A stretch of DNA of 64,000 nt from Pseudomonas sp. 8O (GTDB lineage Bacteria > Pseudomonadota > Gammaproteobacteria > Pseudomonadales > Pseudomonadaceae): contig NZ_LR733263.1 in NCBI RefSeq assembly GCF_902506495.1, positions 101,371 through 165,370 on the forward strand, written 5' to 3'. Positions 5,829-32,980 of this stretch are shown piece by piece. The notes under the pieces are model-generated. The model did no database searches. It saw only the letters and a program-made list of their open reading frames with translations, and was not told where the DNA came from. The translations under genes and the position numbers were made by a program. The first letter of the stretch is position 1, and each line of letters starts with the position of its first letter.

Positions 5829-5860
5829 TTTCTGCGCCAAGCTATATCAAGGATGTTCTT

Positions 5861-12444: not shown

Positions 12445-12474
12445 AAGCCCCACCGCAGCAGAGGCGGTGGAGCT
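12445..12474 (-). terminator. Rho-independent terminator of the upstream DUF1127 gene
   Basis: On the minus strand the stem AGCTCCACCGC / GCGGTGGGGCT with a 7-base loop is followed by TTCGTTTT. It lies about 40 bases downstream of the DUF1127 stop at 12514 and separates the two DUF1127 genes into distinct transcripts. Confidence 0.75.
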
Positions 12475-12513
12475 CTCAGAAGATCCCAGATTGGGATGGA
12501 GCAAAGCGGGGTG

Positions 12514-12729: not shown

Positions 12730-12737
12730 GGTGGTCA

Positions 12738-13041: not shown

Positions 13042-13070
13042 AGGAAACCCGGCACATGGCCGGGTTTCCT
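13042..13070 (-). terminator. Probable terminator hairpin after pntB
   Basis: AGGAAACCCGG / CCGGGTTTCCT, a perfect 11-bp stem with a 7-base loop, sits 18 bases after the pntB stop. There is no U-tract directly after the stem on the minus strand, so termination may be partial or the hairpin may protect the mRNA 3' end. Confidence 0.55.
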
Positions 13071-13087
13071 GTCTGACCGGTCAGGGC

Positions 13088-14524
13088 TTATTCCACGGCC
13101 TTGACCATGTCTTCTATCACCTTCTTGGCATCGCCGAAGACCATCATGGTCTTGTCCATATAGAACAGTTCGTTGTCCAGGCCGGCGTAGCCGCTGGCCA
13201 TCGAGCGCTTGTTGACGATCACGGTCTTGGCTTTGTAGGCCTCGAGGATCGGCATGCCGGCGATCGGCGACTTCGGATCGTTCTTCGCTGCCGGGTTGAC
13301 CACGTCGTTGGCGCCGAGCACCAGCACCACATCGGTCTGGCCGAACTCGGAGTTGATGTCCTCCATCTCGAACACCTGCTCGTAAGGCACCTCGGCCTCG
13401 GCCAGCAGCACGTTCATGTGGCCAGGCATACGCCCGGCGACCGGGTGGATCGCATACTTCACGGTCACGCCGCGGTGGGTCAGCTTCTCGGCCAGTTCCA
13501 TCAGCGCATGCTGGGCACGCGCCACAGCCAGGCCATAGCCGGGCACGATGACCACGGTGTCGGCGTTGGTCAGCAGGAACGCGGCGTCGTCGGAAGAGCC
13601 CGACTTCACGCTGCGCTGCTCCTGGCTGCCGCTGGCTGCACCGGTATCTGCATCGGCGCCGAAGCCGCCGAGGATGACGTTGAAGAACGAGCGGTTCATC
13701 GCCTTGCACATGATGTACGAGAGGATGGCGCCCGAAGAGCCAACCAGGGAACCGGCGACGATCAGCATCGAGTTGTTCAGCGAGAAGCCGATACCGGCCG
13801 CCGCCCAGCCCGAGTAGCTGTTGAGCATCGACACCACCACCGGCATGTCGGCGCCGCCGATAGGGATGATGATCAGCACGCCGATGACGAACGCCAGCGC
13901 CACCAGGATGGCGAACGAGGTGATGTCGCCGGTGAAGGTGTAGACCAGGCCCAGACCGAGAATGGCCAACCCGACGGCCAGGTTGAGCAGGTGCTGGCCT
14001 TTGAAAACCACCGGCGCGCCCTGGAACAGGCGAAACTTGTACTTGCCCGACAGTTTGCCGAAGGCGATCACCGACCCGGAAAAGGTGATGGCGCCGATGG
14101 CTGCACCGAGGAACAGTTCCAGGCGGTTACCGGCCGGGATCGGGTCGGCCATGCCGGCGACGATTCCCAGCGACTGCGGCTCGACGACGGCGGCGATGGC
14201 GATGAACACGGCAGCGAGGCCGATCATGCTGTGCATGAAGGCGACCAGTTCCGGCATCTTGGTCATCTCGACGCGCTTGGCCATGATGGTGCCGATGCTG
14301 CCACCGACCAGCAGGCCGACGATGACGAAGCCCAGGCCTTGAACGGCCAACTCGCTGCCGAGCTTGTAGATCAGGCCGATGGTCGTCAGCACGGCGATAG
14401 CCATGCCGATCATGCCGAACAGGTTGCCGCGTCGCGACGAAGTCGGGTGCGACAGGCCCTTGAGCGCCTGGATGAAGCACACCGAGGCGACGAGGTAGAG
14501 AACAGTGATCAGGTTCATGCTCAT
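13088..14524 (-). CDS. pntB: NAD(P) transhydrogenase subunit beta
   Basis: A 478-residue inner-membrane protein carrying about eight membrane helices of domain II and the C-terminal NADP(H)-binding domain III. The domain III motif GYGLAVARAQHALMELA near residue 325 and the AIHPVAGRMPGHMNVLLAEA segment are characteristic. With PntAA and PntAB it couples hydride transfer between NADH and NADP+ to proton entry. It lies three bases after the pntAB stop. The ATG AGC ATG start leaves a second methionine two codons later as an alternative. Confidence 0.95.
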   Translation of the reverse strand: MSMNLITVLYLVASVCFIQALKGLSHPTSSRRGNLFGMIGMAIAVLTTIGLIYKLGSELAVQGLGFVIVGLLVGGSIGTIMAKRVEMTKMPELVAFMHSMIGLAAVFIAIAAVVEPQSLGIVAGMADPIPAGNRLELFLGAAIGAITFSGSVIAFGKLSGKYKFRLFQGAPVVFKGQHLLNLAVGLAILGLGLVYTFTGDITSFAILVALAFVIGVLIIIPIGGADMPVVVSMLNSYSGWAAAGIGFSLNNSMLIVAGSLVGSSGAILSYIMCKAMNRSFFNVILGGFGADADTGAASGSQEQRSVKSGSSDDAAFLLTNADTVVIVPGYGLAVARAQHALMELAEKLTHRGVTVKYAIHPVAGRMPGHMNVLLAEAEVPYEQVFEMEDINSEFGQTDVVLVLGANDVVNPAAKNDPKSPIAGMPILEAYKAKTVIVNKRSMASGYAGLDNELFYMDKTMMVFGDAKKVIEDMVKAVE

Positions 14525-14527
14525 CGA

Positions 14528-14839
14528 TTACTTCTCCACCTGGGCCTTCGGGGCCTTCTTCTTGAACATTTCCAGCATGCGCCGGGTTACCAGGAAGCCG
14601 CCGAACACGTTGACTGCGGCCAGGGCCACGGCCAGGGTGCCCATGGTCTTGCCCAGCGGGGTGACGGTAAGCGCGGCCGCCAGCATGGCGCCGACGATCA
14701 CGATGGCGGAGATGGCGTTGGTTACGGCCATCAGCGGGGTATGCAGGGCCGGGGTGACGTTCCACACCACGTGGTAGCCGATATAGATGGCCAGCACGAA
14801 GATGATCAGGTTGTAGATGCCGTCGGAAATCAGATCCAT
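14528..14839 (-). CDS. pntAB: NAD(P) transhydrogenase subunit alpha part 2
   Basis: A 103-residue membrane protein with three to four helices ([53 protein letters not shown]), matching the separately encoded membrane part of PntA in Pseudomonas and other bacteria with three-gene pnt operons. The ATG at 14839 has AAGGAG nine bases upstream; a longer open frame upstream overlaps pntAA without likeness. Confidence 0.95.
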
Positions 14840-14850
14840 GTCACTACTCC

Positions 14851-15972
14851 TTAGCCGTTCTTGCGCACGACTTCGCCGGCATTGCACATCAGGCAGGCCG
14901 CGACGATGTCGTCTTCGAGGTTGAGCTGGAACTGGCCTTCCTTGTCGATCACGAGCTTGAGGAAGTCCAGCAGGTTGCGTGCGTACAGGGCGGAGGCATC
15001 TGCCGGCACCAGTGCAGCCAGGTTGGTGTGGCCGACCAGGGTCACGCCATGCTTGACCACTACCTTGTCGGCCTCGGTCAGCGGGCAGTTGCCGCCCTGG
15101 GCTGCCGCCAGGTCGATGACCACGGAGCCGGGCTTCATTTCGGCCACCGTGCTCTCATGCAGAAGCGTCGGTGCCTTGCGGCCGGGGATCAGTGCGGTGG
15201 TGATGACGATATCGGCCTGCTTGGCGCGCTCATGCACGGCCTTGGCCTGACGCTCCATCCATGACGGCGGCATCGGCCGGGCATAGCCGCCCACACCCTG
15301 AGCGCACTCACGCTCTTCATCGGTCTCGAAAGGCACATCGACGAACTTGGCGCCGAGCGACTCGATCTGCTCCTTGACCGCCGGACGCACATCGGAGGCT
15401 TCGATCACCGCACCCAGGCGCTTGGCCGTGGCGATGGCCTGCAGACCGGCAACACCGGCACCGAGAATCAAAATACGCGCGGCCTTAACGGTACCCGCAG
15501 CGGTCATCAGCATCGGCATGAAGCGTGGATAGTGGTGGGCTGCCAGCAGCACGGCCTTGTAGCCGGCGATATTGGCCTGCGAGCTCAGTACGTCCAGGCT
15601 TTGCGCGCGGGAGGTGCGCGGTGCGGCCTCCAGGGCGAAGGCAGTTACGCCGCGAGCATTCATGCGCGCGATGGTCTCGTTGCAGAACGGGTTGAGCATC
15701 CCAACCAACACGGCCCCGGCTCTGATGTGAGCGAGCTCGGCTTCGGTCGGTGCGACCACCTTGAGCACGAGGTCTGCGCCAAACGCGGCAGAGTCGTTGC
15801 CAATGGTCGCGCCAGCAGCCTCGTAAGCGCTGTCTGGAATGCTGGCGCTGATGCCGGCGCCGGCCTGGACGGTCACCTGATGACCTTGGCCGACCAGCTT
15901 TTTGATGGTCTCTGGGGTCGCGGCAACCCGCGTCTCCCCGGCATGGGTTTCGAGAGGAACACCGATGTGCAC
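14851..15972 (-). CDS. pntAA: NAD(P) transhydrogenase subunit alpha part 1
   Basis: A 373-residue soluble NAD(H)-binding domain I of transhydrogenase, related to alanine dehydrogenase. It begins [21 protein letters not shown]. The Rossmann motif is [22 protein letters not shown] near residue 167, and the [20 protein letters not shown] and PGRKAP motifs follow. First gene of the operon, 11 bases before pntAB. Upstream lies a 465-bp non-coding region. Confidence 0.95.
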
Positions 15973-16441
15973 GTCTAATCTCCTGCGTGATCTTTTTTGT
16001 GAACCGGGGCACTGCGCTGGCGCGCCGGCGATTGGGGATCAGCACATAACCCGCCGGAAGGTGGCGAGCGCGGCGATTGTGCAATCGAACGCAAACCCTT
16101 ACAAGAAGTTATGGAGTAAAAAGAATGCATTACTACAAGTAATGGGTCTATGAGGGATTTTTATACTGAGTGCAGCCCGCGCAGATTCGGGCCGACAGCA
16201 GATTCTGCGCAGCTTGTAGGGCAGTATAGGCAGTCACGCGCCGGATGACCGCTGGTCGAATCGGGAGGAGTGTGGAGAGTAACGAACAATCCGTTCAGAA
16301 TAGTGCCATAGCCCGAAAGTAGTGGTTAGTGAGCACTTTCCCTGGTGAACTAAATGTAGTGTGACCGTATTTGCGCTACGGGTTCTATTTTTGGGCGTAT
16401 CTGTTCTCTGCGAGCTAAAAGCGATCTTTCTCTAGCGATGA
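15973..16441. other. Intergenic region upstream of pntAA
   Basis: About 465 bp between pntAA and the LysR gene, both read leftward. No gene is supported. It must hold the pnt promoter. It contains ACTGAGTGCAGCCCG (16165-16179), a diverged copy of the 13-mer repeated downstream of pntB, preceded in both places by a GAG...ATTTTTA segment. Confidence 0.4.
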
Positions 16442-17338
16442 TCATGCACCCCGATAGGCGTCGGCCTGGGCCAGGAGCCAGTCACGAAAGGCCTTCAGCG
16501 CTGCAGACTCGGCCTTGCGTTCCGGCACTATCAGGTAATAGGCGCGGTCGTTGTTTGGCACAGCTCGATCAAGGGCGATCACCAGGCTGCCCTCTTTCAG
16601 TTCGCGCTGGATCAGAAAGGGTGGGATCAGTGCGATGCCCATTTCATGCTGCGCTGCCTGGGCCAGCATGGAGAACAGTTCCAGTCGCGGGCCGGTCATG
16701 TCGCGAGCCACATTCATGCCCTGGGCGGCGAACCACTGGCGCCAGGCGTAGGGACGGGTGGTCTGCTGCAGCAGGGGCAGAGCGGCGATGTGCTCAACTG
16801 TCACCGGGGTGTCGCCCAGTAGCGCCGGGCTGCACACCGGCAGCAGGTGCTCATGCATCAGGAAATGGGCTTCGGTGCCCGACCATTCGGCGTCGCCGTA
16901 ATAAATGGCGGCATCGAAGTGAGTGTCGGCGAACAGGAAGGGGCGCGTGCGGTTGGTGAGGTGCACCGTCACCTCAGGGTGCAGCTGCTGAAAGTTACGC
17001 AAGCGTGACAGCAGCCACTGCGTGCCAAAGGTCGGTACCACCGCCAGCTCGATACTGGTGGTGCCCTGGTTGCCCATCAGCGCCAGGGTGTCGCGCTCCA
17101 CTGCATCGAGTTGCGCTGCCACCTTGCGACTGTAGGCGACGCCCGCTTCGGTCAGCACCACGCCGCGCCTTGAGCGGCGAAACAGCTCCACATTAAGAAA
17201 GCTCTCCAGCCCGCCGATCTGCCTGCAGATCGCGCTCTGCGTCAGGTTCAACTCGTCGGCGGCCTTGGTGAAGCTCTGGTGGCGAGCGGCGGACTCGAAG
17301 GCGACCAGGGCGGCGGTGCTGGGTATCTTGCGGCGCAT
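16442..17338 (-). CDS. gcdR: LysR-family regulator, GcdR/GcvA type
   Basis: A 298-residue LysR regulator: winged helix-turn-helix at about residues 5-64 (FTKAADELNLTQSAICRQIGGLE), then a substrate-binding domain. The N-terminus MRRKIPSTAALVAFESAARH is of the GcvA subgroup. It is divergent from gcdH, the arrangement known for the glutarate-pathway activator GcdR in pseudomonads. I chose the ATG at 17338 because GTGAGG precedes it; an ATG seven codons earlier (17359) lacks a ribosome site. The shared region contains the TTATTCATCTGAATTTATCG stretch, suitable for LysR binding. Confidence 0.85.
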   Translation of the reverse strand: MRRKIPSTAALVAFESAARHQSFTKAADELNLTQSAICRQIGGLESFLNVELFRRSRRGVVLTEAGVAYSRKVAAQLDAVERDTLALMGNQGTTSIELAVVPTFGTQWLLSRLRNFQQLHPEVTVHLTNRTRPFLFADTHFDAAIYYGDAEWSGTEAHFLMHEHLLPVCSPALLGDTPVTVEHIAALPLLQQTTRPYAWRQWFAAQGMNVARDMTGPRLELFSMLAQAAQHEMGIALIPPFLIQRELKEGSLVIALDRAVPNNDRAYYLIVPERKAESAALKAFRDWLLAQADAYRGA

Positions 17339-17518
17339 ATATGCAAAAGCCTCACTCATAATCGATAAATTCAGATGAATAAACTATCTCGGAGTGAGGA
17401 AAAAGCACAGATATGTGCAAATTCTGCGTTTGTCCTCTGCTCGAAGCCGGCCTAGGATCAAAGCCATTCAGGGTCGGCTGGGTTGGCCGCTCACTTCACT
17501 GCTTCGAGGGTTTTCGCA

Positions 17519-18697
17519 ATGGCCAAGGCAAGCTTCAACTGGATCGACCCGCTGCTGCTCGATCAGCAACTGACCGAAGAAGAGCGCATGGTGCGTGATA
17601 GCGCCCAGCAGTTCGCGGACGACAAGCTGGCGCCTCGCGTGCTCGAGGCGTTCCGCCACGAGCAGACCGATCCAAAGATCTTCCGTGAAATGGGCGAAAC
17701 CGGCTTGCTGGGGGCGACCATTCCTGAGGCCTACGGTGGCAGTGGCCTGAATTACGTGTGCTACGGGCTGATCGCCCGTGAAGTGGAGCGCATCGACTCC
17801 GGTTACCGTTCGATGATGAGCGTGCAGTCCTCGCTGGTGATGGTGCCGATCAACGAGTTCGGTAATGAAGCGACCAAGCAGAAGTACCTGCCCAAGCTCG
17901 CAAGTGGCGAGTATATCGGTTGCTTCGGCCTGACCGAGCCGAACCACGGCTCCGATCCGGGCGCTATGGTCACCCGTGCCAAGAAGGTCGAGGGTGGCTA
18001 TCGCCTCACTGGCAGCAAGATGTGGATTACCAACAGTCCGATCGCCGATGTGTTCGTGGTCTGGGCCAAGGACGATGCTGGCGAGATCCGTGGCTTCGTG
18101 CTGGAGAAAGGCTGGGAAGGTCTTTCCGCTCCGGCGATTCACGGCAAGGTGGGTTTGCGCGCCTCGATCACCGGCGAGATCGTCATGGATAACGTGTTCT
18201 GTCCCGAAGAGAACGCCTTCCCGGATGTGCGCGGCCTGCGCGGCCCATTCACCTGCCTGAACTCCGCCCGTTACGGCATCAGCTGGGGTGCCCTGGGCGC
18301 CGCCGAATTCTGCTGGCACACCGCACGCCAGTACGTGCTCGATCGCAACCAGTTCGGCCGGCCACTGGCGGCTAATCAACTGATCCAGAAGAAGCTGGCC
18401 GACATGCAGACCGAAATCACCCTGGCTCTACAGGGTTGCCTGCGCCTCGGCCGAATGAAGGATGAAGGCACCGCTGCGGTGGAGATCACCTCGATCATGA
18501 AGCGCAACAGCTGCGGCAAGGCGTTGGATATCGCGCGCCTGGCGCGCGACATGCTGGGCGGCAACGGCATCAGCGACGAGTTCGGCATTGCCCGTCACTT
18601 GGTCAACCTCGAGGTGGTCAATACATACGAGGGCACGCATGACGTACATGCACTGATTCTTGGGCGTGCGCAGACCGGCATCCAGGCGTTCTTCTAA
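17519..18697 (+). CDS. gcdH: Glutaryl-CoA dehydrogenase
   Basis: A 392-residue acyl-CoA dehydrogenase that oxidises and decarboxylates glutaryl-CoA to crotonyl-CoA, feeding electrons to ETF, in lysine and glutarate breakdown. Motifs: [14 protein letters not shown] near residue 140, [17 protein letters not shown] near 178, and the catalytic Glu371 in [15 protein letters not shown]. The start at 17519 has GAGGG at good spacing. The adjacent divergent gcdR and downstream CoA-transferase support the assignment over other acyl-CoA dehydrogenases. Confidence 0.95.
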
Positions 18698-20067: not shown

Positions 20068-20137
20068 GCGCGCCACTTCAGCGATGAAGCTCTTCAAAAA
20101 CTTCTTGTTAATCAATAAGTTAAGTTTAAAAGAGGGG

Positions 20138-20165
20138 TTGCAAAGCGAGGTGAGGCGTGTAGAAT
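20138..20165 (+). promoter_or_regulatory. rRNA-type promoter P2 (orphan)
   Basis: -35 TTGCAA (20138-20143), 16-bp spacer, -10 TAGAAT (20160-20165), discriminator GCGCGCC. It lies 98 bp after P1 with an identical GTAGAATGCGCGCC block and an AT-rich stretch between, as in tandem rRNA operon promoters. About 20 bases downstream the truncated xseA begins, on the opposite strand. Confidence 0.6.
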
Positions 20166-20186
20166 GCGCGCCGGTCGACAGGGTGG

Positions 20187-20603
20187 AATCTTGCGTTCGG
20201 TAGAGAACAGACCTTCGGCGCCGAGCTTCTCCTTCAGCGCCTCGAAGGCCAGGCGCAGGGCGCCGTCGCCGGCCGGCTCCACGGCGTCGAGAATCAGCTG
20301 GTAGTCGCCGCGCCCCTCGAACAGCGAGACCTTGCCGCGCACCTTCACCGCCAGGCCATCGCGCAGCGCCTGGCGCACGCGCGCGGCGTTCTGCCGGAAC
20401 AGCGCGCAGCGCACCTGGGCCTGGCTGTCCTTCAGGGTGAAGTAGATGTGGCCGGAGGCCGGGCGGGCGAGGTTGGAAATTTCCCCCTCGACCCAGATGC
20501 CGGCGAACACGTCCTCCAGCAGCAGGCGGGCGCGGTTGTTGAGCTGGCTGACGCTGAGGACCTCGCGGTCGAGGTTCAGGCGGGCAAAAGGGTCATTGAT
20601 CAT
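20187..20603 (-). pseudogene. xseA: xseA N-terminal fragment (exonuclease VII large subunit)
   Basis: The first 138 codons of exonuclease VII large subunit are intact: MINDPFARLNLDREVLSVSQ, the OB-fold segment WVEGEISNLARPASGHIYFT, and FEALKEKLGAEGLFSTERK. Likeness stops after the Lys at codon 138 and an unrelated 25-codon tail runs to a stop at 20112. Full XseA is about 450-460 residues, so the catalytic and coiled-coil parts are missing. The start (20603) and orientation, facing away from guaB 12.5 kb to the right, fit the xseA/guaB divergent arrangement seen in E. coli. The product would be at best a DNA-binding fragment. Confidence 0.85.
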
Positions 20604-22709: not shown

Positions 22710-22769
22710 GTGGGAGGGGCTTCAGCCGCGATTTGTGCTGTCTTCAGTCGCCGCTGAAGCGCCTCCCAC
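22710..22769. repeat. REP palindrome pair (BIME-like)
   Basis: GTGGGAGGGGCTTCAGCCGC at 22710-22729 and its inverted partner GCCGCTGAAGCGCCTCCCAC at 22750-22769 flank an 18-20 bp loop, the standard form of Pseudomonas REP doublets. The right half recurs at 30828-30847 beside the intact receptor paralogue. Confidence 0.8.
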
Positions 22770-22811
22770 AGGTGCTCGGCACAAGGTGGCTGCGCTGCCG
22801 TCAGGATAAGC

Positions 22812-23620
22812 TCAGAACTCGACGCTGGCCGACAGGCGCAGTTCACGCGGCTCGCCCACGGCGATGCGCAGGTCACCACCGCTGGACGGGTAGTATTCCT
22901 TGTTGAACAGGTTGTTGGCATTGAGCTGCAGCCTGGTTTTGTCGCCTAGCAGGCGCGTGGTTTCCCAGGAGACGAAAGCATCGGCCACGGTGTAGCTGTC
23001 CAGCCAAGCACTGTTGGCGTTATCCACCGCACGCTTGCCGACGTAACGTGCACCGCCGCCGACACGCCAGAGGCCAAGTTCGCCTCGCACCGCCAGGTCA
23101 TGGCTCAGGTACAGACTGCCCATGTTCTTCGCTGCGTTGACCAGTGCATTGCCCTTATTGCTCGGATCATCAAGGATTTCCGTGTCGGTGTGGGCGTAGG
23201 TGGCGATCAGGTTCCAGCGCTCGGCGATGCGCCCGGTCAGGTCGACTTCCACACCGCGCGAACCCACCTTGCCGGCGGCTTCGGAGTTGCCGTTGTTGCT
23301 GACCACCACGTTGTGCTTTTCGATGTCGTAGACCGCGATGTCGGTGCTGAGGTAGGGCGTGATGTCGTACCTGGCGCCAATCTCGCGGCTCTTGCCCTCT
23401 TCCGGGTCATAGGCACTGGCATCGGCCAGAGTGTCCGACTAATTGGGTTTGAACGATTCGCTGTAGTTGGCATGCAGCGATAGCTTGTCCGTGGCGGCGA
23501 ATACCACCCCCTACAAAAGGCAGGAAGGCCTGGCCCTGATCGCCGATCAAACGGTTATGGCTGCTGCCCAGCCCCTGAACCAGATATTGGTCGTAGCGTT
23601 GATAGAGGCCACCCAGCTTA
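22812..23620 (-). pseudogene. TonB-dependent siderophore receptor, 3' fragment, decayed
   Basis: About 265 codons of the C-terminal beta-barrel of a TonB receptor, ending in the terminal-Phe signature LRLSASVEF. It aligns throughout with the C-terminal third of the intact receptor at 30878-32980 (NLFNKEYYPSSGGDLRIAVGEP against NLFDERYYSSSGGNLRVAVGEP). Upstream of the intact stretch there is an in-frame TAG at 23439-23441 (YSESFKPN, stop, SDTLADA). A frameshift follows near 23503-23515, and likeness ends near 23620. Plug domain and signal peptide are missing. It is non-functional. Confidence 0.9.
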
Positions 23621-23788: not shown

Positions 23789-24982
23789 ATGCGATTTAAT
23801 CATTCGTTTAAAATTCTCACAGTCCTTATTTGGGTTGTAAATCTGTGCGCCATTTGTGCGTCCACGCTAACCTATATCTATCTGTCTTATTACACTTACA
23901 AGGAAACCGGCAGCTTGCTTTATTCGCAGGTCGTGCTGTTTTCACCCATGCTCTTGCCCGTATTGTTTGTTGGGCAAATTTATAGACTGTCCGATCAAGT
24001 ATCTCCACGTACATTATTGCTTTTGTCCAATGCCTTGGCGCTGTTGGTGGTAGTGCTGGTTTATTCGCTACTGCCGACTGTTGCATTGGTTGCAATCGTT
24101 GGCGGTATTGCTATTGGTGCACTGGACGCGTTGCAGCGGGTCGGCCGAATCGTTGCCATCAAATGCTACTTCAATTCAGCAAATGTCGAGTCCACCGTTC
24201 CGTTGACCCTGACAGCGCAGTTTATTGCCGGTGGCATCGCCGGTACTGCAATGACACTGGTCAAGGGCGATATGATGCCTTGGCACGCGTTGGCAATCAC
24301 TACCGCGCTGTTCTCCATAGCCTCCTTCGCTGCCTTTCTGCTACCCCGTGCGGAGCGCCCGGTTACCGTCACCATCCCTCAGTCTGCGGCGCTGATCAAA
24401 ACATTTGCGAATCTTATGAGGACCAGCCCGCAACTGCGCCGCAGTTTCTGGAACTTCATTATTCTCGTCAGCGTTTATCAGGGCTTCTTCAATGTCTCGC
24501 GGGTGATTCTGCCGGCCCATGTTCTGGGTTTGTCGGAGGACTATGTGGGCTTGCTGCAAATGGTCAATAGCGTGGCCGCCTTGGTCGGCGCGATCCTTTA
24601 CTACAAGGTGAGCAAGCGCGGTCATAAGTTGTCGCCCCTTTCCATGGCAGCTGCGAGCGCATTGTTCATGATGGCAGCCGCCTACGGTGGAGGCTTGACC
24701 TCCAGTTATGGAGCTTACTTTTTCTATATTTTTTTCTTTGAACTGGCATTTTTCAAGTTGCAATCCGACGTCGTGTTGGCAACTCCGGCCAATGCCATGC
24801 CTCTGGTTGCGTCAGTGCAATATGCGGGCGTTTATGCCGGAATGGTTTTAACAATAATCTTCGGTTCGTTATTGGTTGAGCATATTGGCTTGCTGTTGAC
24901 TAGCATTATTTTTTCCGTGCTTTATTTTTCGGTTGCTCTAGTGTTCTCGTTGAGTTTGAAGCCGGTGGAGCAGGTTATGTAG
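23789..24982 (+). CDS. MFS transporter, putative exporter of the cluster
   Basis: A 397-residue inner-membrane protein with about 12 hydrophobic segments in two halves separated by a charged loop near residues 190-215. The overall pattern is that of the MFS_1/MFS_3 drug-efflux type (ending LLVEHIGLLLTSIIFSVLYFSV). No binding-site motif gives a substrate. First gene of the six-gene cluster, followed 36 bp later by the CDP-alcohol phosphotransferase. Base composition is visibly lower in GC than that of flanking genes. I infer export of the cluster's product, with self-protection as a second possibility. Confidence 0.8.
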   Translation: MRFNHSFKILTVLIWVVNLCAICASTLTYIYLSYYTYKETGSLLYSQVVLFSPMLLPVLFVGQIYRLSDQVSPRTLLLLSNALALLVVVLVYSLLPTVALVAIVGGIAIGALDALQRVGRIVAIKCYFNSANVESTVPLTLTAQFIAGGIAGTAMTLVKGDMMPWHALAITTALFSIASFAAFLLPRAERPVTVTIPQSAALIKTFANLMRTSPQLRRSFWNFIILVSVYQGFFNVSRVILPAHVLGLSEDYVGLLQMVNSVAALVGAILYYKVSKRGHKLSPLSMAAASALFMMAAAYGGGLTSSYGAYFFYIFFFELAFFKLQSDVVLATPANAMPLVASVQYAGVYAGMVLTIIFGSLLVEHIGLLLTSIIFSVLYFSVALVFSLSLKPVEQVM

Positions 24983-25018
24983 TAAATATTTTGAATATGC
25001 ACAAGGAAGTCATGAGAT

Positions 25019-25636
25019 ATGCACAGGATGGCTGCGATATTTCCGTTCGTTCGTTTTTTTGATTTAGCTAATGGGGTGACAGTATTAAACACTCTGTTGT
25101 CTTTTGCGGTCGTGGTCGTGGCGCAACAAGGACGCTTGTCTTGGGCTGCTAGTATTATTTGTTTGGCGGCGATACTAGATTTTGTTGATGGGCACATTGC
25201 AAGAACTTGGTTGGCCGCTGACGCGCCAAGGCGCGAGTTTGGCAAGCATCTGGACAGTTTTGCCGACCTGCTGAATTTCAGTGTCGTACCAGCACTTGTT
25301 CTGATCATGCTGATTCCTTCATCTCTGGCCGTACTGGCGGGTTCTGCACTAGTGCTGTCCGGTGTACTGCGCCTAGCTGTTTTCTCCATCAATCATCCTG
25401 ACGCTCCGGTGGGTTATTGCGGTTTGCCGACGACCTACTCCGGTTTGCTGTTCGCGCTAGCTTTCCAGTCAGTGGCGGCAGGCAAGGTTGGCGCTGATGA
25501 CGTGCTGGTGCTGATGTTTCTCATTGCCGTACTTCAGGTCATGAACCTGAAATTGCCGAAATTCAAGACCGTTCCCACGGTGGCCTTCATTACGGTTGTC
25601 TTTTCCTTCTGCAGTTTTCTCCTCTATTACGCATAA
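25019..25636 (+). CDS. CDP-alcohol phosphotransferase family protein (PssA-like)
   Basis: A 205-residue integral membrane enzyme with about six helices. The full CDP-OH-P motif is present: D54-x2-D57-G58-x2-A61-R62, then 12 residues, G75-x3-D79-x3-D83. The metal-binding and catalytic aspartates are therefore all kept. The GKHLDSFADLLNFSVVPALVL stretch is closest to type II phosphatidylserine synthase. Family members displace CMP from a CDP-activated group with an alcohol. The next genes appear to make a CDP-linked phosphoramidate, so I infer that this donor rather than CDP-diacylglycerol is used. An ordinary lipid role remains possible. AAGGAAG precedes the ATG by nine bases. Confidence 0.8.
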   Translation: MHRMAAIFPFVRFFDLANGVTVLNTLLSFAVVVVAQQGRLSWAASIICLAAILDFVDGHIARTWLAADAPRREFGKHLDSFADLLNFSVVPALVLIMLIPSSLAVLAGSALVLSGVLRLAVFSINHPDAPVGYCGLPTTYSGLLFALAFQSVAAGKVGADDVLVLMFLIAVLQVMNLKLPKFKTVPTVAFITVVFSFCSFLLYYA

Positions 25637-25652
25637 CTATATGGGGCGCTTT

Positions 25653-26963
25653 ATGAAACATGTCGTTTTGGTTGATAGCACTGTCAGTGGCCTGCTCGCC
25701 TTTGAAGCTGCCAAGCGCCTGGGTTGTCATGTGACATTTATTCACCAGCGCGATACGTCGTTTCTGACAATATCGCTCAAGGGGGATCACTCGAAAATCG
25801 AGACGTACCTTAAACACGTCGACGAATATATTCGCGTTGATTCGCTTGAGGGCGACGAGTTTCACAATCTGTTGGCAAAGCTCAACGGCATTCGAAAAAT
25901 TGATGCGCTGATCTCTACGTCCGAGGCGGCGATTGTTGCCGTGGCCCGAGAAGCCGAGTTGCTCGGTACGCGTTACCCAAGCTATGAAAATCTTTGCGGC
26001 GCTGTCTATAAAAGTCGTCTGCGTGAAATATTGCGCACCCAAAACGTGCGTTCTCCTGACTTCCAGGTCTTGACCGAAAGCCAACTGGCCGAAGGCATCG
26101 CGCCTTGGTTGGCTTTGCCGTTCGTGATCAAACCCACGCGTGGTTTTGCCAAACAGTTTTCGGCGATCTGTTTTACTCAGCAGGATTTCGACGCATTCGT
26201 CGAAAATATCCGTCAAGTCCGTACTGATTCCGATCAGATGATTGAAGCCTTAGTCAGCCGCGAATACCTGGTCGAACAATACGTGAACGGTACGCTGCAC
26301 TCTGCTGAAGTCATCGTTCAGGACGGGGTAGTGTCTTGCTACGCTACCACTATTCGTTTTCGCGCCGACTACAACGAGATCCTCGAGATGACAGCAACCA
26401 TGCCGTCAGGTCTGGATACGGCAGCGCGGAATGAAATAGAGACCTATGTTCAGCAGGTATTCACTGCCTTGAAACTGGACGTAGGCCTGTATCACGTCGA
26501 GTTGCTCCGTGACGAAAACGGCCCATGCCTGGTGGAGATCAATGCACGCATGATGGGCAGTGTCGCACCGCAAATGTATAGGATGCTGACCGGTATTGAT
26601 CCATTCGAAATGCTGATCCGTCTGCATTTGGGGGAGATCATCAAGATTGACGATTCGCTGATTGAAACTGCGGGTACCGTAGTCACGATCGCCTCGCGAC
26701 ATGGCGGACGGATTGCCGATAGCTATGATCCTCGAACGCTACAGCAGCTGCTGGACAAGTACGAGATCGAGTTTTGTACTGCCCATGTTGTGCCCGGTCA
26801 GCATGTGAGCGTCTACACCGGCAATATCGGAACGATCGGCCATGTCATTGTGCTCGACAGCTGCCCCTACGCGGCCGCGAAAAAGGGCAACAGTTTTCTG
26901 GCTGAACTGTCCTTGTTGTATGGCAACGAACTGGCGAAATACGCCGGTCCGGAACTGACGTAA
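25653..26963 (+). CDS. ATP-grasp ligase (amino-acid ligase type)
   Basis: A 436-residue cytoplasmic ATP-grasp enzyme. The N-terminal third is a Rossmann-like preATP-grasp domain (MKHVVLVDSTVSGLLAFEAA). The ATP-binding Lys is in PFVIKPTRGFAKQFS, the adenine-contact strand is EYLVEQYVNG, and the metal-binding ExNxR is present in CLVEINARMMGS. This is the layout of L-amino-acid ligases (BacD type) and PurD/CarB relatives, which make an acyl-phosphate and then an amide. Substrates are unknown. Here it probably joins an amino acid to another cluster metabolite. Start ATG 25653; 25641 is an alternative. It follows the phosphotransferase gene by 16 bp. Confidence 0.8.
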   Translation: MKHVVLVDSTVSGLLAFEAAKRLGCHVTFIHQRDTSFLTISLKGDHSKIETYLKHVDEYIRVDSLEGDEFHNLLAKLNGIRKIDALISTSEAAIVAVAREAELLGTRYPSYENLCGAVYKSRLREILRTQNVRSPDFQVLTESQLAEGIAPWLALPFVIKPTRGFAKQFSAICFTQQDFDAFVENIRQVRTDSDQMIEALVSREYLVEQYVNGTLHSAEVIVQDGVVSCYATTIRFRADYNEILEMTATMPSGLDTAARNEIETYVQQVFTALKLDVGLYHVELLRDENGPCLVEINARMMGSVAPQMYRMLTGIDPFEMLIRLHLGEIIKIDDSLIETAGTVVTIASRHGGRIADSYDPRTLQQLLDKYEIEFCTAHVVPGQHVSVYTGNIGTIGHVIVLDSCPYAAAKKGNSFLAELSLLYGNELAKYAGPELT

Positions 26964-27039
26964 GTCACTGTCATACCGGTTCTTGGCAGTCATAGCTGCT
27001 CACAATGGAATGTAATTACCTCTAACAGTGGAAGACGAC

Positions 27040-29400
27040 ATGCAGTCGATGACTTTAGCCGGCCCTTTCGAGTTTTCTGGTAAAGCCGGGACGCTGGAAA
27101 GCCTTGCCCCATTACTGAAAACTGGCCGCGTGCTGCCATTACTCCGGTTCACGGTCAGGAACTGGCGTAGCAAGCGACAGGCCATTCTGGATTATTGTGT
27201 AAACCGCTTCGGTGATCATTCATTGATCGTGCGCTCCAGCAGTCTGTCGGAGGATCAAGATGGCACCTCGGGGGCTGGTATGTACGATTCGGTTGGTAAT
27301 GTGCGTGGGGCTATAGCATTGGAACAGGCCATTGAACGGGTAATCGGCTCATACGGGCAAGCCGGCGATTTCGATGAAGTGCTGATCCAGAGTATGGCAA
27401 CTGGGGTGTTGGCGTCGGGGGTAGCGATGACTCGTGATCCGGAAACCGGCCTGCCTTACTATGTGGTCGATTATGTACCAGGTCACGAAACGGATGGCGT
27501 CACTGCCGGCACCGGTACTGTTCACTCGTTCGTGGCGCTCAAATCCCAGTGCTGTTCAGAACCGGTGGAGCTCAAGGGGTTGTTCGCCCTGCTGGCCGAA
27601 GTCGAGCAACTGACTGAGCGCGACGCGCTGGATATCGAGTTCGCGATCACCGAAGACGGGCCGCTTCTGTTTCAGGTTCGGCCGATGACGGGACAAGGCG
27701 TGGAGAACATCGATTTGCAATCGGACCAGGCGTTGCTTTCGATCCTGGATTCAGAGGTAGTGCTGCTTGAAGGGTTGGCCAGAAATACTCGAGAGCCCGA
27801 GCATAGCTTCAATGCCTTTTTGGGGCTGATGCCGGACTGGAATCCAGCCGAGATGATTGGTGTCAAGCCGCGACCGTTGGCGTATTCGCTATATAAGGAG
27901 CTGATCACTGATGTGAATTGGGCGTCGGCGCGGTTCCGCTACGGCTACCGCGACATGCGCAACAAACCATTGATGTATCAGTTCAGTGGCTCACCATACA
28001 TCTGCATTCCCTATAGCGTGGAGTCGTTCATTCCAGCAGCGCTGCCGTTGTCGATCGTCAACTCGGTGGTCAAGGAGTGTTGTGAATACCTCGCAGCTCA
28101 CCAGTCGTTGCACGACAAGATTGAGTTTTCGATTATTCCCACCTGTTTTACGCCACAACTGGCGGCCATGCCCGCGAGATCAATTCCAGCTTTCAACGGA
28201 TTGAGCGCGGCTCAGCATGCGCTCTATCTGGCAGAACTGAAGAGCGTTACCGAACACATCATCAGCGCCGATGGGCCGTTTTTCTCGGACCTGACGCGAC
28301 TCCCCCGGATTGAACAAAAAGTCGAAAGACTTGGCAGCCATCAGCAGAGCGAGGATCCGCTTCAGCGATTACGTCACGCCCTGGCTGACGCAAAGGTGGT
28401 TGGAGAAGTTTTTTCCGGCGTAGCGCGGGCGGCATTTGTTGCTACCTCAGTCATCAAGTCGCTGGAAACCATGCAGCGAATTCCTGCGGGTGTCACGGAT
28501 TCGCTGATCGGCAGCGTGTACACCGTTGGACGCAAGATAGCCGACGACTTTCGAATACTGCACAAAGAAGCGTTCTTACGCCTGCACGGCCATGTACGTC
28601 CCGGCACTTACGATTTACGCGTGGCTCGATACGATGAAACCCCCGACGCCTATTTCGACTGGAATACGCCGCTGCAACGGGCTCATCGTGATGAAGGACC
28701 GCGGGTGATCAGTCGTGAAGTTCGTAATGCTGTGCAACAAGCCTTCGACGAGTGTCAGCTTCGCGTATCGGCTGAACATTTTTTCAAGTTTCTTGATGCC
28801 GCTGTCGCCGCCCGGGAGAAGGTAAAGTACTTGTACGGTGCTTTCGTCTCGCAAGCCCTCAAGGCGCTCGGCATTTGGGGAGAGAGTCATCAGTTGGGGC
28901 GCGAAGAGTTGAGTTTCGCAAGAGTTGACGATTTTTTCGGCAACCTTGAAGAGCTCCGGGTGGAGATGATTCGTGATGAGATCGCCAGCAACCGAGTGCG
29001 GTGGCAGTCGACTCAAGGTATCCGCACCCCGGTCATTGTATGCAAGCCTCAGGATTTGTTGTCTCACGCCATTGAGACATGCAATCCGAACTTCATCACC
29101 CGCAGTGCGACTGAAGCGCCAGTGGCGGTATTGCGGGCAGAAGAGACTAGCAAGCGCGACATCGAAGGCTGCATTGTGTTGATCGAGAGCGCCGACCCTG
29201 GTTTCGACTGGATTTTCACTCACCGTATCGCGGGGTTCATTACCGCTTACGGTGGCGAAAACTCTCACATGTCGATCCGTGCCCGGGAGTTTGCAATCCC
29301 CGCTGCAATCGGTGTTGGGGACGCGAAATTTCGTAGTTTGCTGTCGAGCGCACGGTTAATTCTCGATTGTGCCGAGCGTCGTATCCAGGTGCTGTCATGA
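27040..29400 (+). CDS. Glutamine kinase-like enzyme (PEP-synthase fold, Cj1418 type)
   Basis: A 786-residue three-domain dikinase-like protein. The N-terminal ATP-grasp part (SLIVRSSSLSEDQ and SGAGMYDSVGNV, with FQVRPM near 210) is of the PPDK/PpsA type. The middle, about residues 240-690, is helical and unlike the PEP-binding barrel. The C-terminal swivelling His domain holds GGENSHMSIRARE with the phospho-carrier His743. The same ATP-grasp / spacer / His-domain order and size are found in C. jejuni Cj1418, which phosphorylates the amide nitrogen of L-glutamine using ATP. The neighbours are its pathway partners. The ATG at 27040 has GGAAG five bases upstream. Its stop overlaps the next start (ATGA). 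Confidence 0.8.
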   Translation: MQSMTLAGPFEFSGKAGTLESLAPLLKTGRVLPLLRFTVRNWRSKRQAILDYCVNRFGDHSLIVRSSSLSEDQDGTSGAGMYDSVGNVRGAIALEQAIERVIGSYGQAGDFDEVLIQSMATGVLASGVAMTRDPETGLPYYVVDYVPGHETDGVTAGTGTVHSFVALKSQCCSEPVELKGLFALLAEVEQLTERDALDIEFAITEDGPLLFQVRPMTGQGVENIDLQSDQALLSILDSEVVLLEGLARNTREPEHSFNAFLGLMPDWNPAEMIGVKPRPLAYSLYKELITDVNWASARFRYGYRDMRNKPLMYQFSGSPYICIPYSVESFIPAALPLSIVNSVVKECCEYLAAHQSLHDKIEFSIIPTCFTPQLAAMPARSIPAFNGLSAAQHALYLAELKSVTEHIISADGPFFSDLTRLPRIEQKVERLGSHQQSEDPLQRLRHALADAKVVGEVFSGVARAAFVATSVIKSLETMQRIPAGVTDSLIGSVYTVGRKIADDFRILHKEAFLRLHGHVRPGTYDLRVARYDETPDAYFDWNTPLQRAHRDEGPRVISREVRNAVQQAFDECQLRVSAEHFFKFLDAAVAAREKVKYLYGAFVSQALKALGIWGESHQLGREELSFARVDDFFGNLEELRVEMIRDEIASNRVRWQSTQGIRTPVIVCKPQDLLSHAIETCNPNFITRSATEAPVAVLRAEETSKRDIEGCIVLIESADPGFDWIFTHRIAGFITAYGGENSHMSIRAREFAIPAAIGVGDAKFRSLLSSARLILDCAERRIQVLS

Positions 29401-29999
29401 CCTTGATAGCCGTCACCATGCTTCGGCTGTTCGATACAGCGCGAGATGAGTGGAGGGATGCGATTGATGCGCGCTGGACGTCCTTTCTGTCTCATTGTGG
29501 GGTGCTACCTCTTTACATGCCCAATGATGCCCATGTCAGTCGTGACCTGTTGGCGCGGCTTCAGCCGCAGGGTGTGCTATTGACCGGGGGCGGTAGTTGT
29601 CAGGTGTTGTCGGGTATTACCGGTCCGCGAGATGAAACCGAAGCCATGCTGTTGGCGTGGGCCGCACAGAATCGCCTTCCAGTCCTAGGCATATGTCGTG
29701 GTATGCAGGTGATGCTCAGTCGTGCCGGGGCAACGCTAGAGCCCGTTGCATCCCACGTAGGCGAGCACGACATTGACTTTCACGGCGCGGTTCGACGGGT
29801 CAACTCGTTTCACGATTACGGCTTTTATGCAGTGCCACCTGATTATAAAGTCGAGGCAGTCAGTGAGGACGGTGTAGTCGAAGCCGTCAGCAACCCCTGC
29901 TTAGGTCATAGCGCCGTGATGTGGCACCCCGAACGTAATCAACATTGGGACAGTGCTGACCTTTCCTTGGTCCGCCAGGTTTATGGAATTTCACCATGA
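29397..29999 (+). CDS. Class I amidotransferase-fold hydrolase (gamma-glutamyl-CDP-amidate hydrolase, Cj1417 type)
   Basis: A 200-residue single-domain class I glutamine amidotransferase/peptidase C26 protein. The nucleophile is Cys100 in VLGICRGMQVM and the triad is completed by His177 and Glu179 in MWHPERN. No synthetase domain is attached or adjacent. In C. jejuni the equivalent Cj1417 hydrolyses CDP-L-glutamine to cytidine diphosphoramidate plus glutamate. Position between the kinase-like and cytidylyltransferase-like genes, with ATGA overlaps on both sides, makes the same reaction likely. PuuD-type gamma-glutamyl hydrolase is the main alternative. Confidence 0.8.
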   Translation: MTLIAVTMLRLFDTARDEWRDAIDARWTSFLSHCGVLPLYMPNDAHVSRDLLARLQPQGVLLTGGGSCQVLSGITGPRDETEAMLLAWAAQNRLPVLGICRGMQVMLSRAGATLEPVASHVGEHDIDFHGAVRRVNSFHDYGFYAVPPDYKVEAVSEDGVVEAVSNPCLGHSAVMWHPERNQHWDSADLSLVRQVYGISP

Positions 30000-30721
30000 A
30001 GGCAATCATTCTTGCGGCTGGACGTGGTAGCCGATTGGGGGCGCTCACTGATCTGCGGCCCAAGGCATTGGTGACATTCAACGGTATGCCGTTAATCGAG
30101 CGAACAGTTCGTACTTTGCGTGCCGCTGGTATTACCGAGATCGGCATTGTTGCGGGTTATCGCAGCGATATGCTCGCGCCCTATGCTGATCGGCTGTTTA
30201 TCAACCCGCTGTGGAGTACGACGGGAATTCGCCAGTCGCTTAGTGCTGCCCATGAATGGCTGGACTCGCAGGCGTGTGTGGTGAGTTACGGCGATATTTT
30301 CTATTCGCCAGAGCTAGTCAGGGCCCTGATACAAAAAGACGAAGATATTGATCTAGCATTTGATCCCCGGGCGGTGAAACTCTGGCAGCAGCGCTTCGAT
30401 CAACCTCTGGATGACATGGAGCGATTTGTTATCGAGAACGGCAGGATCTGCGAAATCGGCCATCGTGCCGAGACGTTGGAGCAGATCCAAGGACAATACA
30501 TGGGCTTATTCAAGCTGACGCCGAGAGGTTGGTGTGCTCTCAATGATCAACTGCAACGGTTGAGCATTGAGCAGCGTGAACAAGTTGATATGACCTCGCT
30601 GTTTTCCTTGCTGATTGAGGACGGTATACGGGTTGGCGGGACGCCGACGAATGCGCCATGGGGCGAAATTGACTGCCCTTCCGACGTGCAATTGTATGAG
30701 CGGATTTATCCACAGCTATGA
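29996..30721 (+). CDS. Nucleotidyltransferase (CTP:phosphoglutamine cytidylyltransferase, Cj1416 type)
   Basis: A 241-residue sugar-nucleotidyltransferase-fold enzyme. The NTP loop is LAAGRGSRLGALTDLRPKAL (residues 6-25, with Lys23), and the metal-binding Asp is in SYGDIFYS near residue 97. C. jejuni Cj1416 has this fold and couples CTP to glutamine-phosphoramidate, giving CDP-glutamine and pyrophosphate. The ATGA overlap with the hydrolase gene shows coupled translation. Taken alone it could be any NDP-sugar or phosphocholine cytidylyltransferase; the neighbours decide the call. Last gene of the cluster. Confidence 0.8.
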   Translation: MKAIILAAGRGSRLGALTDLRPKALVTFNGMPLIERTVRTLRAAGITEIGIVAGYRSDMLAPYADRLFINPLWSTTGIRQSLSAAHEWLDSQACVVSYGDIFYSPELVRALIQKDEDIDLAFDPRAVKLWQQRFDQPLDDMERFVIENGRICEIGHRAETLEQIQGQYMGLFKLTPRGWCALNDQLQRLSIEQREQVDMTSLFSLLIEDGIRVGGTPTNAPWGEIDCPSDVQLYERIYPQL

Positions 30722-30827
30722 GCGTATAGCTTGAACTGCCAGTAAGCTTGGTTTCCACGCGAAATTCAAATCTGCTGAGGTGTTGATAAATTTCAAATTT
30801 TGCGTAGGGATTATGATGTTTTCAGTC

Positions 30828-30847
30828 GCCGCTGAAGCGCCTCCCAC
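30828..30847. repeat. Single REP half-element at the right edge of the cluster
   Basis: GCCGCTGAAGCGCCTCCCAC, identical to the right half of the REP doublet at 22750-22769. Both copies sit at the 3' end of a TonB-receptor sequence, so the REP plus receptor 3' end forms a long direct duplication bracketing the cluster. The remaining 100 bp before it hold no gene. Confidence 0.75.
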
Positions 30848-30877
30848 AGGCGCTCAGCAGTTGCCATCAGGCTAAGG

Positions 30878-32980
30878 TCAGAACTCGACGCTGGCTGACA
30901 AGCGCACCTCGCGCGGCTCGCCCACGGCAACGCGTAGATTGCCGCCGCTGGAGGAGTAGTAACGCTCGTCGAACAGGTTGCGTACGTTCAGTTGCAGGCG
31001 GGTCTTTTCGCCGAGCAGTTGGCTGTCCCAACTGACGAAGGCATCGGCCACCGTGTAGCTGTCCAGCCAGAATGTGTTGGCGTTGTCGCCGGCACGCTCA
31101 CCGACGTAACGGGCGCCGCCACCCAGTCTCCACTGACCCAACTCCTGGGGCAGATGCAGATGATGGACGAGGTAGAGACTGCCGACATTGCGCGCGGCGT
31201 TGACCAGTTCGTTGCCTTCGTTGGCCGGGTCATCGAGGATTTCCGTATCGGTGTAGGCGTAGCTGCCAAGCAGTTCCCAGCGCTCGCTGAGGCGGCCGGT
31301 GATATCCAGCTCTACGCCGCGCGAACTGACCTTGCCTGCGGCTTCCGATACGGAATTGTTGGTAACTACGACGTTTTCCTTCTCGATATCGAACAGCGCC
31401 AGGCTGGCGCCGATACCTTGAGGCAGATCGAGTTTCACGCCCAGCTCGTAGCTGCGACCTTCTTCGGGGTCGAATGCCTGGCCGGTATCGGTATCCGAGG
31501 CATTGGGCACGAAGGAGCGGCTGTAGTTACCGTAGAACGCCACCTGGTCGTTCAATTGGAAGACCAGGCCACCGAAGGGCAGGAAGGTGGTGTCTTGCCG
31601 GTCGGTGGTCGGCTTGTACAGCGCCCCTCGACCTTGCCCGACCAACTGCTCGAAGCGCTGGTAACGGCCGCCAAGCACCAGAATCCATTGCTCGTTCAAG
31701 TGCCAGTTGTCTTTCACGTAAAGTGAGCGCGAATGCAATTCGTCGCGGCGATCGCTCTGTGACAGATTGAGCAGGGAGGGTGCGGCAAGGTTGCCGTAGA
31801 CCGGGTTGTAGATGTTGAAGCCGCCGACTGCCGGGCCGCGCCAGGTATCGCCACGAAAGTTGTCGACGCGTTCTGTGTCTGCACCAATTAGCAGATCATG
31901 GCGCTGACCGAATAGCGTGGCCTTGCCGATCCAGTCCCAGGCCAGATATTGGGTCTGGTTGTCATGCTCGCTACCATCGGAGCGGCGGCTGAGCGCGCCT
32001 GTAGTGGCATTCAGAACATTGGGGCGAGCTTCGGCATAGTCGTAGCGCTCGTTGTTCCAGCCATAGGTGAGGCGGCTCGACCAGTCGGCGCTGAGCTGGT
32101 ACTCGGCAGTAGCCGTGAGCAGTTCATCGATACCTTCAGCCTTGGACCAGCGCTCGCTGAAACGGTCGTTATAGGAAACCTTGGCCGGCTTGCCGTTGAT
32201 GATCACCGTGCCTCGATCCACCGGGCTGCTGTATTCCTTGTATTCGTAGGCGATGTTGAGGCGCAGACGTTCGCCCTCCCAGCTCAGCGAGGGCGCGATC
32301 AGGCTGTGCTCTTCTTCGCCGAAGTTACGCCAATAATCTTCGTGCTGACGCTCGGCAACCAGGCGAAAGGCCAGGCCGCTATCGGCAATTGGGCCGGTAA
32401 CGTCAACTGCCAGGCTGCCTCCGCCGAAGCTGGAGCTGTCCGCGCTCAGTTGCGTGCCCCATTGGTACTGCGGTTTCTTGCTGATGACGTTGATCAGGCC
32501 ACCCGGCTCCAGCGCGCCATACAGCAGTGAGGCCGGCCCCTTGAGCACTTCCACGCGTTCGGTGGTGGCGCTGAAGTTGCGTGAGAGGCTGGAGCGAATG
32601 CCGTCACGGAGGATCGACCCGTCGGCGTTGCCACCAAAGCCGCGCTTGACGAAACCATCCTGTGTGCCAGCCAGTGTGTTGCTCTGGGTCATGCCACTAA
32701 CGAACTTCATCGCATCGTCCAGCGACCTGACCTGGAAGTCCTCGATAGTCTGTGGCGTTACCACCTGTACTGATTGGGCCTCATCCTTGAGTGCGACGGA
32801 GGATTTGCTTGCCGTGCTGGCGCGCTTGGCCTGGTAGCCGTCTTCTTCCAGGGCGGGCTTGGCGACCACTTCCTGGCTGGGCAGCTCCAGCTCCTGGGCC
32901 AGCAGTTGACCGGCTGGAAGCAGGCAAAGGGTAAGCAGAGTGGCGCATCGGCTACTCAAGAACGGGCGGGTAGATTTCAT
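30878..32980 (-). CDS. TonB-dependent siderophore receptor
   Basis: A 700-residue outer-membrane ferric-siderophore receptor. The signal peptide is cleaved probably after LLAQ/LA near residue 28. The plug domain holds SVQVVTPQTIEDFQVRSLDD and VEVLKGPASLLYGALEPGGL, and the barrel ends in LRLSASVEF with a terminal Phe. The sequence is complete, without an N-terminal signalling extension. A Fur-like box lies about 24-46 bases upstream. No siderophore synthesis gene is adjacent, so it may serve a xenosiderophore. A decayed paralogue lies at 22812-23620. Confidence 0.93.
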   Translation of the reverse strand: MKSTRPFLSSRCATLLTLCLLPAGQLLAQELELPSQEVVAKPALEEDGYQAKRASTASKSSVALKDEAQSVQVVTPQTIEDFQVRSLDDAMKFVSGMTQSNTLAGTQDGFVKRGFGGNADGSILRDGIRSSLSRNFSATTERVEVLKGPASLLYGALEPGGLINVISKKPQYQWGTQLSADSSSFGGGSLAVDVTGPIADSGLAFRLVAERQHEDYWRNFGEEEHSLIAPSLSWEGERLRLNIAYEYKEYSSPVDRGTVIINGKPAKVSYNDRFSERWSKAEGIDELLTATAEYQLSADWSSRLTYGWNNERYDYAEARPNVLNATTGALSRRSDGSEHDNQTQYLAWDWIGKATLFGQRHDLLIGADTERVDNFRGDTWRGPAVGGFNIYNPVYGNLAAPSLLNLSQSDRRDELHSRSLYVKDNWHLNEQWILVLGGRYQRFEQLVGQGRGALYKPTTDRQDTTFLPFGGLVFQLNDQVAFYGNYSRSFVPNASDTDTGQAFDPEEGRSYELGVKLDLPQGIGASLALFDIEKENVVVTNNSVSEAAGKVSSRGVELDITGRLSERWELLGSYAYTDTEILDDPANEGNELVNAARNVGSLYLVHHLHLPQELGQWRLGGGARYVGERAGDNANTFWLDSYTVADAFVSWDSQLLGEKTRLQLNVRNLFDERYYSSSGGNLRVAVGEPREVRLSASVEF

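Follow-up and report, generated by a model that had tools for sequence, protein, structure and literature searches.

A six-gene Pseudomonas cassette that may make and export a phosphoramidate dipeptide from cytidine diphosphoramidate

We analyzed a 64,000-nucleotide stretch of the Pseudomonas sp. 8O genome (contig NZ_LR733263.1, positions 101,371 to 165,370; the window) and identified six co-directional plus-strand genes, at 23789-30721, that form one operon-like cassette. The second half of this row is a three-gene module that very probably produces the donor cytidine diphosphoramidate (CDP-NH2). The first half encodes a major facilitator superfamily (MFS) transporter, a CDP-alcohol phosphotransferase and an ATP-grasp ligase. 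With a probability of about 0.5, the cassette makes and exports a small phosphoramidate peptide, likeliest O-phosphoramidyl-L-serine in peptide linkage with a second amino acid, that would act as a glutamine-mimicking antimetabolite. A sequence-only reading of the window had described the three module genes correctly, but it overlooked the three same-strand genes that begin upstream at 23789.

The module starts with an L-glutamine kinase-like protein related to phosphoenolpyruvate (PEP) synthase (27040-29400, plus strand; 786 amino acids from an ATG start, or 790 from an alternative GTG at 27028). Its score to the curated model NF004508 (778 bits) exceeds the cut-off of 501 bits, and both of the Campylobacterales kinases that were scanned match the same model (1076 and 1096 bits). 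The next gene (29397-29999, plus strand) encodes a class I amidotransferase-fold hydrolase of 200 amino acids, predicted to be a gamma-glutamyl-CDP-amidate hydrolase. The last (29996-30721, plus strand; 241 amino acids) encodes a MobA/LicC-like nucleotidyltransferase (PF12804, 74 bits), predicted to be a CTP:phosphoglutamine cytidylyltransferase. The three open reading frames (ORFs) and their coordinates, the predicted phospho-carrier His743 of the kinase (codon at 29266-29268, plus strand), Cys100, His177 and Glu179 of the hydrolase, the LAAGRGSRLG motif and the ATGA overlaps (at 29397 and 29996) were all found as described earlier.

The reference for this module was a set of 248 genomes sampled from the order of L077, a Campylobacterales record. 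Twelve of these match NF045546, the model for gamma-glutamyl-CDP-amidate hydrolase, at E 1e-30, and seven are over its cut-off; the stretches compared were six of those seven (L132-L137) and L141, which is below the cut-off. Kinase, hydrolase and nucleotidyltransferase genes occur in the order seen in the window in all six Campylobacterales stretches (in L134 with a gap before the third gene), and identities to the window proteins are 29-32%, 27-32% and 31-34%, respectively. Profiles built from the six stretches were run on the window proteins and on paralogues from the same genome. The kinase scored 475 bits (29 for PpsA, the only paralogue scored), the hydrolase 86 bits (47 for a PuuD-type protein, the best of five paralogues) and the nucleotidyltransferase 142 bits (43 for MurU, its identity verified, the best of nine frames). 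Between the five known cassettes (see below) and the six Campylobacterales stretches, 148 positions are invariant in the kinase, including His743, as are 30 in the hydrolase and 51 in the nucleotidyltransferase; Cys100, His177 and Glu179 are identical in all 11 hydrolases (5/5 and 6/6). Because the Campylobacterales profiles outscore the housekeeping paralogues, a CDP-NH2 donor module is the best reading of the three genes, and we consider it well supported, with the activities predicted from sequence. Placement of the proteins with PpsA, PuuD and sugar-nucleotide transferases, which the sequence-only reading had named as the contrary outcome, was not found for any of the three, and mis-annotation of a PpsA, a PuuD or a sugar nucleotidyltransferase was rejected on these scores.

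The full six-gene set, in identical order and with the MFS transporter always first, was identified in five Pseudomonas genomes: that of the window, L138 (genome G363), L139 (G203), Pseudomonas endophytica (L003) and Pseudomonas sp. UBA6562 (L004; L140 is the same contig). Flanking sequences (up to 6 kb) are alike only between L138 and L139, so the five genomes represent four sites. In the window, the first four genes are separated by gaps of 36, 16 and 76 bases, and the G+C content of the cassette is 52.9%, compared with 61-62% in the adjoining 6 kb on each side.

The second gene of the cassette (25019-25636, plus strand; 205 amino acids) encodes a CDP-alcohol phosphotransferase of the phosphatidylserine synthase (PSS) type, predicted to transfer P-NH2 from CDP-NH2 to serine. 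The signature DxxDGxxAR...GxxxDxxxD (25178-25267, plus strand) includes D79, S80 and D83, with F122 beyond it; all four serine-contact residues of PSS, as given in passages of PMC8633023, are thus present. Serine-type models lead by a wide margin in NCBIfam. From homology and pocket residues, serine is moderately supported as the acceptor, and slightly favored. We think it unlikely that the donor and exporter are as proposed while the acceptor is different (homoserine, another amino acid, a peptide or a non-amino-acid alcohol), or that the product acts on something other than a glutamine enzyme. Such an arrangement would be compatible with a serine call that comes from homology and pocket residues only, with the one transferase homologue that has A for S80, and with ligase substrates that comparison does not fix; the four retained contacts and the lead of the serine-type models argue against it.

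It is improbable that the transferase is a second lipid enzyme, either producing phosphatidylserine from CDP-diacylglycerol or placing phosphoramidate onto a lipid hydroxyl. The protein is of PSS type in sequence and fold and is a predicted membrane protein, as a lipid enzyme would be, but the genome already encodes PssA (L145, verified; 125 bits, over the pssA cut-off of 107), to which it is 31% identical over 111 residues. A GLPTTY-G motif is invariant in the cassette transferase and its homologues (26/26), whereas PssA has GLASPAAAG at this position; R104 of PSS is lacking, and each of the five cassettes pairs the transferase with the CDP-NH2 module and a gene resembling those of dipeptide ligases. 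A plain second PssA was set aside, given the PssA already present, the low identity, the motif and the lack of R104. Known phosphatidylserine synthases (e.g., M. jannaschii PSS) share the fold, the CDP-alcohol signature and the serine-contact residues with the cassette enzyme, which differs from them in its linkage to the module, its V in place of R104, the GLPTTY-G motif, a predicted water-soluble donor and a score under the pssA cut-off.

The third gene (25653-26963, plus strand; 436 amino acids) encodes an ATP-grasp ligase (PF13535, 63 bits), predicted to be an L-amino acid (dipeptide) ligase. Its structure model (predicted local distance difference test score 92.8) has the ATP-grasp L-amino acid ligase fold over the whole length, and the best matches listed are the L-amino acid ligases 3vot and YwfE/BacD. 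The likeness to such enzymes (BL00235, BacD/YwfE, RizA) lies in this fold, whereas identity is about 15-18%. The first gene (23789-24982, plus strand; 397 amino acids) encodes the MFS transporter (PF07690, 42.9 bits, over cut-off), the predicted product exporter. We predict that an exported dipeptide is the likely product. Ligase relatives at 48-50% identity occur in Pseudomonas poae RE*1-1-14 (P0167) and Spartinivicinus poritis (P0181), and may be parts of related clusters with other partners.

Cj1415 of Campylobacter jejuni is an adenosine 5'-phosphosulfate (APS)-kinase-like enzyme that makes the 3'-phospho form of the donor. Conversion of the C. jejuni donor to 3'-phospho-CDP-NH2 is described in passages of PMC6429109. 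The absence of a Cj1415-type kinase from the window, noted in the sequence-only reading, was borne out by a search with the homologue from L133. The 64-kb window has just a 29-residue piece (E 0.006), the other cassette loci have no match at E 1e-5, and none of the five cassettes includes this kinase (0/5). A match to the same query was found in 68 of the best 80 kinase loci (from at least 572 confirmed genome stretches); two of the 12 loci with no match are cassettes and six are on contigs shorter than 8 kb.

We also searched 90 loci (the 80 kinase loci and ten further ones) with a CDP-alcohol transferase profile trained on cassette homologues, L018 and four enzymes of the Pseudomonas sp. 8O genome. 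Only the cassettes and L018 have a match, and none of the 68 loci that bear a Cj1415-type kinase does. At L018 (Rhizobium paknamense, 9917-15006), the module is followed by a CDP-alcohol transferase, there is no APS-kinase-like gene, and the contig ends right after; the profile match is not independent because L018 is in the training set (Pfam had detected this transferase earlier). The top models for the L018 transferase are of serine type, below their cut-offs. Because the Cj1415-type kinase is missing and a CDP-alcohol transferase is present in its stead, we expect a donor with plain cytidine monophosphate (CMP). If a phosphoramidate peptide is indeed made, the capsule 3'-kinase is missing here because the CDP-alcohol transferase would need plain CMP as the leaving group. 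The earlier proposal that unphosphorylated CDP-NH2 is the final donor agrees with the absence of this kinase, but CDP-NH2 is not the end of the pathway, as genes for a transferase, a ligase and an exporter are in the same row.

An unrooted FastTree phylogeny of the kinase (105 rows) has a branch with 100% local support that splits 25 rows from the 80 that hold the Campylobacter kinases. On the 25-row side are the cassettes, L010, L016 and L018, rows whose protein cluster and a ligase cluster come from contigs of equal length, and a small number of others. For the Campylobacter side, we tallied 114 plus-strand ORFs of at least 180 amino acids at 21 loci (25 of 139 ORFs, including every ORF of four loci, were excluded). 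The neighbors include methyltransferases (up to 18), APS kinase (10), CDP-glycerol transferases (7), flagellins (3), sulfotransferases (3) and sugar genes, the set expected for glycan decoration. These associations, and the Campylobacter type of the three core enzymes, are what might suggest that, as in Campylobacter, the phosphoramidate decorates a surface glycan (capsule, lipopolysaccharide or flagellar) whose acceptor genes lie in another part of the genome. We regard this as quite improbable, given that no glycosyltransferase, methyltransferase or sulfotransferase domain reaches the Pfam cut-off in any of the six cassette proteins (proteins encoded elsewhere in the genome were not searched), that there is no Cj1415-type kinase, that the same six genes recur at four sites with unrelated flanks, and that the kinase is on the other side of the fully supported branch. 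The earlier statement that no capsule genes lie nearby agrees with this Pfam result, and capsule or flagellar decoration was set aside, the cassette being without acceptor or methyl genes.

Compared with the C. jejuni O-methyl phosphoramidate capsule pathway, the cassette thus has three homologous enzymes, encoded in the same order as in the six Campylobacterales stretches and with catalytic residues kept. Unlike that pathway, it lacks the Cj1415-type kinase, a methyltransferase and a sulfotransferase-like transferase, and it has a CDP-alcohol transferase, an ATP-grasp ligase and an MFS transporter, with its kinase on the opposite side of the tree.

Other kinase relatives have different contexts. 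Proteins of about 960-990 amino acids (P0055, P0057, P0058, P0061 and others) carry an APS-kinase domain in the same chain and are thus natural fusions of Cj1418-like and Cj1415-like parts. At L010 (Cupriavidus sp. amp6, 923-6826), a kinase relative with no hydrolase or nucleotidyltransferase match is followed by a pyridoxal-phosphate aminotransferase and a thiamine-diphosphate enzyme. L054 also has a kinase relative without these two matches, and its neighboring ORFs resemble those of L010; perhaps both represent another use of phosphoglutamine. At L016 (Microbacteriaceae VKM Ac-2855, 9956-18116), the module adjoins genes for an alpha-amylase-fold protein, a family 2 glycosyltransferase and an MFS transporter.

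From gene content, gene order, conservation, family placement and predicted folds, we infer the following reactions, as well as the acceptor, the second amino acid and the target. The kinase would place a phosphate on the amide nitrogen of glutamine, the nucleotidyltransferase would add CMP from cytidine triphosphate, and the hydrolase would remove glutamate to leave CDP-NH2. Without a Cj1415-type kinase, plain CDP-NH2 would pass to the PSS-like transferase, which would place P-NH2 on the serine hydroxyl and release CMP. The ligase would join the phosphoramidyl amino acid (or serine, before the transfer) to a further amino acid, giving a dipeptide that would leave the cell through the MFS protein. 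Once taken up and cleaved by a neighboring cell, it would release the warhead H2N-PO2-O-CH2-CH(NH3)-COO, expected to be similar to phosphinothricin and to the tetrahedral intermediate in glutamine synthetase or glutamine-using enzymes. In chemical terms, replacing C-gamma of glutamine with O and C-delta with P would give O-phosphoramidyl-serine, with NH2 on a tetrahedral phosphorus; phosphinothricin has P-CH3. Glutamine-using enzymes are a possible target, which we suggest tentatively.

Bialaphos is a small peptide from which a glutamine-synthetase inhibitor is released. Tabtoxin is likewise a source of such an inhibitor, freed from a small peptide, and peptide masking until release by a peptidase has been proposed for it (passages of PMC3927611); the dipeptide form could mask the warhead in the producer in the same way. 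Phosphinothricin/bialaphos and tabtoxin differ in that they involve C-P bond or beta-lactam chemistry. No PEP mutase domain was identified in the cassette (Pfam), and a phosphonate pathway was rejected. Phaseolotoxin of Pseudomonas syringae is an antimetabolite peptide with N-P bonds, for which PhtL, a protein like pyruvate phosphate dikinase (PPDK) and PEP synthase, is postulated to form the N-P bond and PhtU is an L-amino acid ligase (passages of PMC11278893). The parallel is one of logic (a PPDK-like protein and an L-amino acid ligase), drawn from descriptions and not from sequence. The Pht cluster differs in having 23 genes (PMC5453526, in part), and its product is a sulfodiaminophosphinyl peptide directed against ornithine carbamoyltransferase (PMC3927611).

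Several observations weigh against a phosphoramidate peptide as the product. With NF045546, its top NCBIfam model, the hydrolase scores 86 bits against a cut-off of 250, so that the model alone would not name it. The transferase is under every serine-type cut-off (e.g., 72.7 vs. 107 bits for pssA), and the V at the R104 position and the homologue with A for S80 also count here. R118 (R101 of PSS) is kept, yet the verified PgsA of the same genome has R too, so we did not count it as serine-specific. The transferase is an integral membrane protein, and its known relatives mostly use lipid donors. A small CDP-alcohol transferase tree is weakly resolved, with long branches, and we build no claim on it. 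At 18% identity, the closest relative with a solved structure is too distant to indicate which amino acids the ligase uses. A Cj1415-type match is likewise missing from three of the six Campylobacterales stretches, as it is from the 12 kinase loci mentioned above, so the absence of the 3'-kinase is by itself weak evidence. The module at L016, whose kinase falls on the cassette side of the tree, comes with no CDP-alcohol transferase gene. The cassette has no obvious self-resistance gene; eight glutamine-synthetase-family matches in the genome are uninformative on resistance. The neighboring guaB and guaA were considered as immune targets, an idea dropped because three of the four cassette sites lie elsewhere.

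To our knowledge, the biosynthesis of many natural products with P-N bonds is unknown. Such compounds are few, with about 55 small molecules in a 2019 review (PMC6429109, in part). We offer, as a speculative proposal, that the cassette represents a new product class: a secreted O-phosphoramidyl-L-serine dipeptide, a 'biological glufosinate' with P-N in place of P-C, for which CDP-NH2, the donor of the Campylobacter capsule, is re-routed through a former phosphatidylserine synthase. The product might block the glutamine synthetase or amidotransferases of competitors, and the genes, of which Burkholderia and Dickeya have relatives, might be spreading within Pseudomonas. If so, six genes suffice for a phosphoramidate peptide, CDP-NH2 gains a role beyond glycan decoration, a CDP-alcohol transferase accepts a donor that is neither lipid nor sugar, and a new inhibitor scaffold against glutamine synthetase or amidotransferases is within reach. 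Searches of the open-access literature, which leaves out most subscription journals, brought up neither such a cassette nor such a product.

The three-gene module itself is widespread. Among the best 80 kinase loci, 77 have a hydrolase match, 76 a nucleotidyltransferase match and 75 both; matches to the MFS transporter, CDP-alcohol transferase and ligase were found only at L003 and L004. In a Pseudomonas sample, the kinase was detected at E 1e-30 in 35 of 398 genomes, and all 30 loci inspected carry both partner genes. Four of the 35 genomes (G000, G363, G203 and G144) have a kinase of the window type (at least 56% identity), and the remaining 31 kinases are 34-39% identical to that of the window. 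The location outside Campylobacter-type capsule loci, highlighted in the sequence-only reading, is therefore true but unremarkable, because the module is common and occurs in many phyla.

Judging by protein clusters, relatives of the ligase and kinase also occur in Dickeya and in Burkholderia ubonensis; in the latter, their locus tags are adjacent (WL77_12410 and WL77_12415). At E 1e-40, there was no ligase match in 368 other genomes of a class sample or in 398 genomes of a Burkholderiaceae sample; both samples are too thin, because the clusters name B. ubonensis and Dickeya. Ligase matches were found in 181 plasmid records, all below 60% identity (22-29% for the 20 listed), and in no phage records.

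A sigma-70 promoter scan gave four sites, with no excess over the shuffle mean of 6.1, and there are 13 terminator-like sites (shuffle mean 8.6, standard deviation 3.3). The xseA gene is split, with the first part in the window (20112-20603, minus strand; profile positions 1-125) and profile positions 129-389 on another contig (C6:1137376-1138284). The gene was apparently interrupted by a rearrangement, or the assembly is wrong at this place. Immediately upstream of the cassette lies a decayed TonB-receptor remnant that shares 73.5% identity, across 604 bases, with the intact receptor gene immediately downstream (30878-32980). The matching stretches are at 22733-23336 and 30811-31399 (minus strand), and the cassette sits between these two paralogues.

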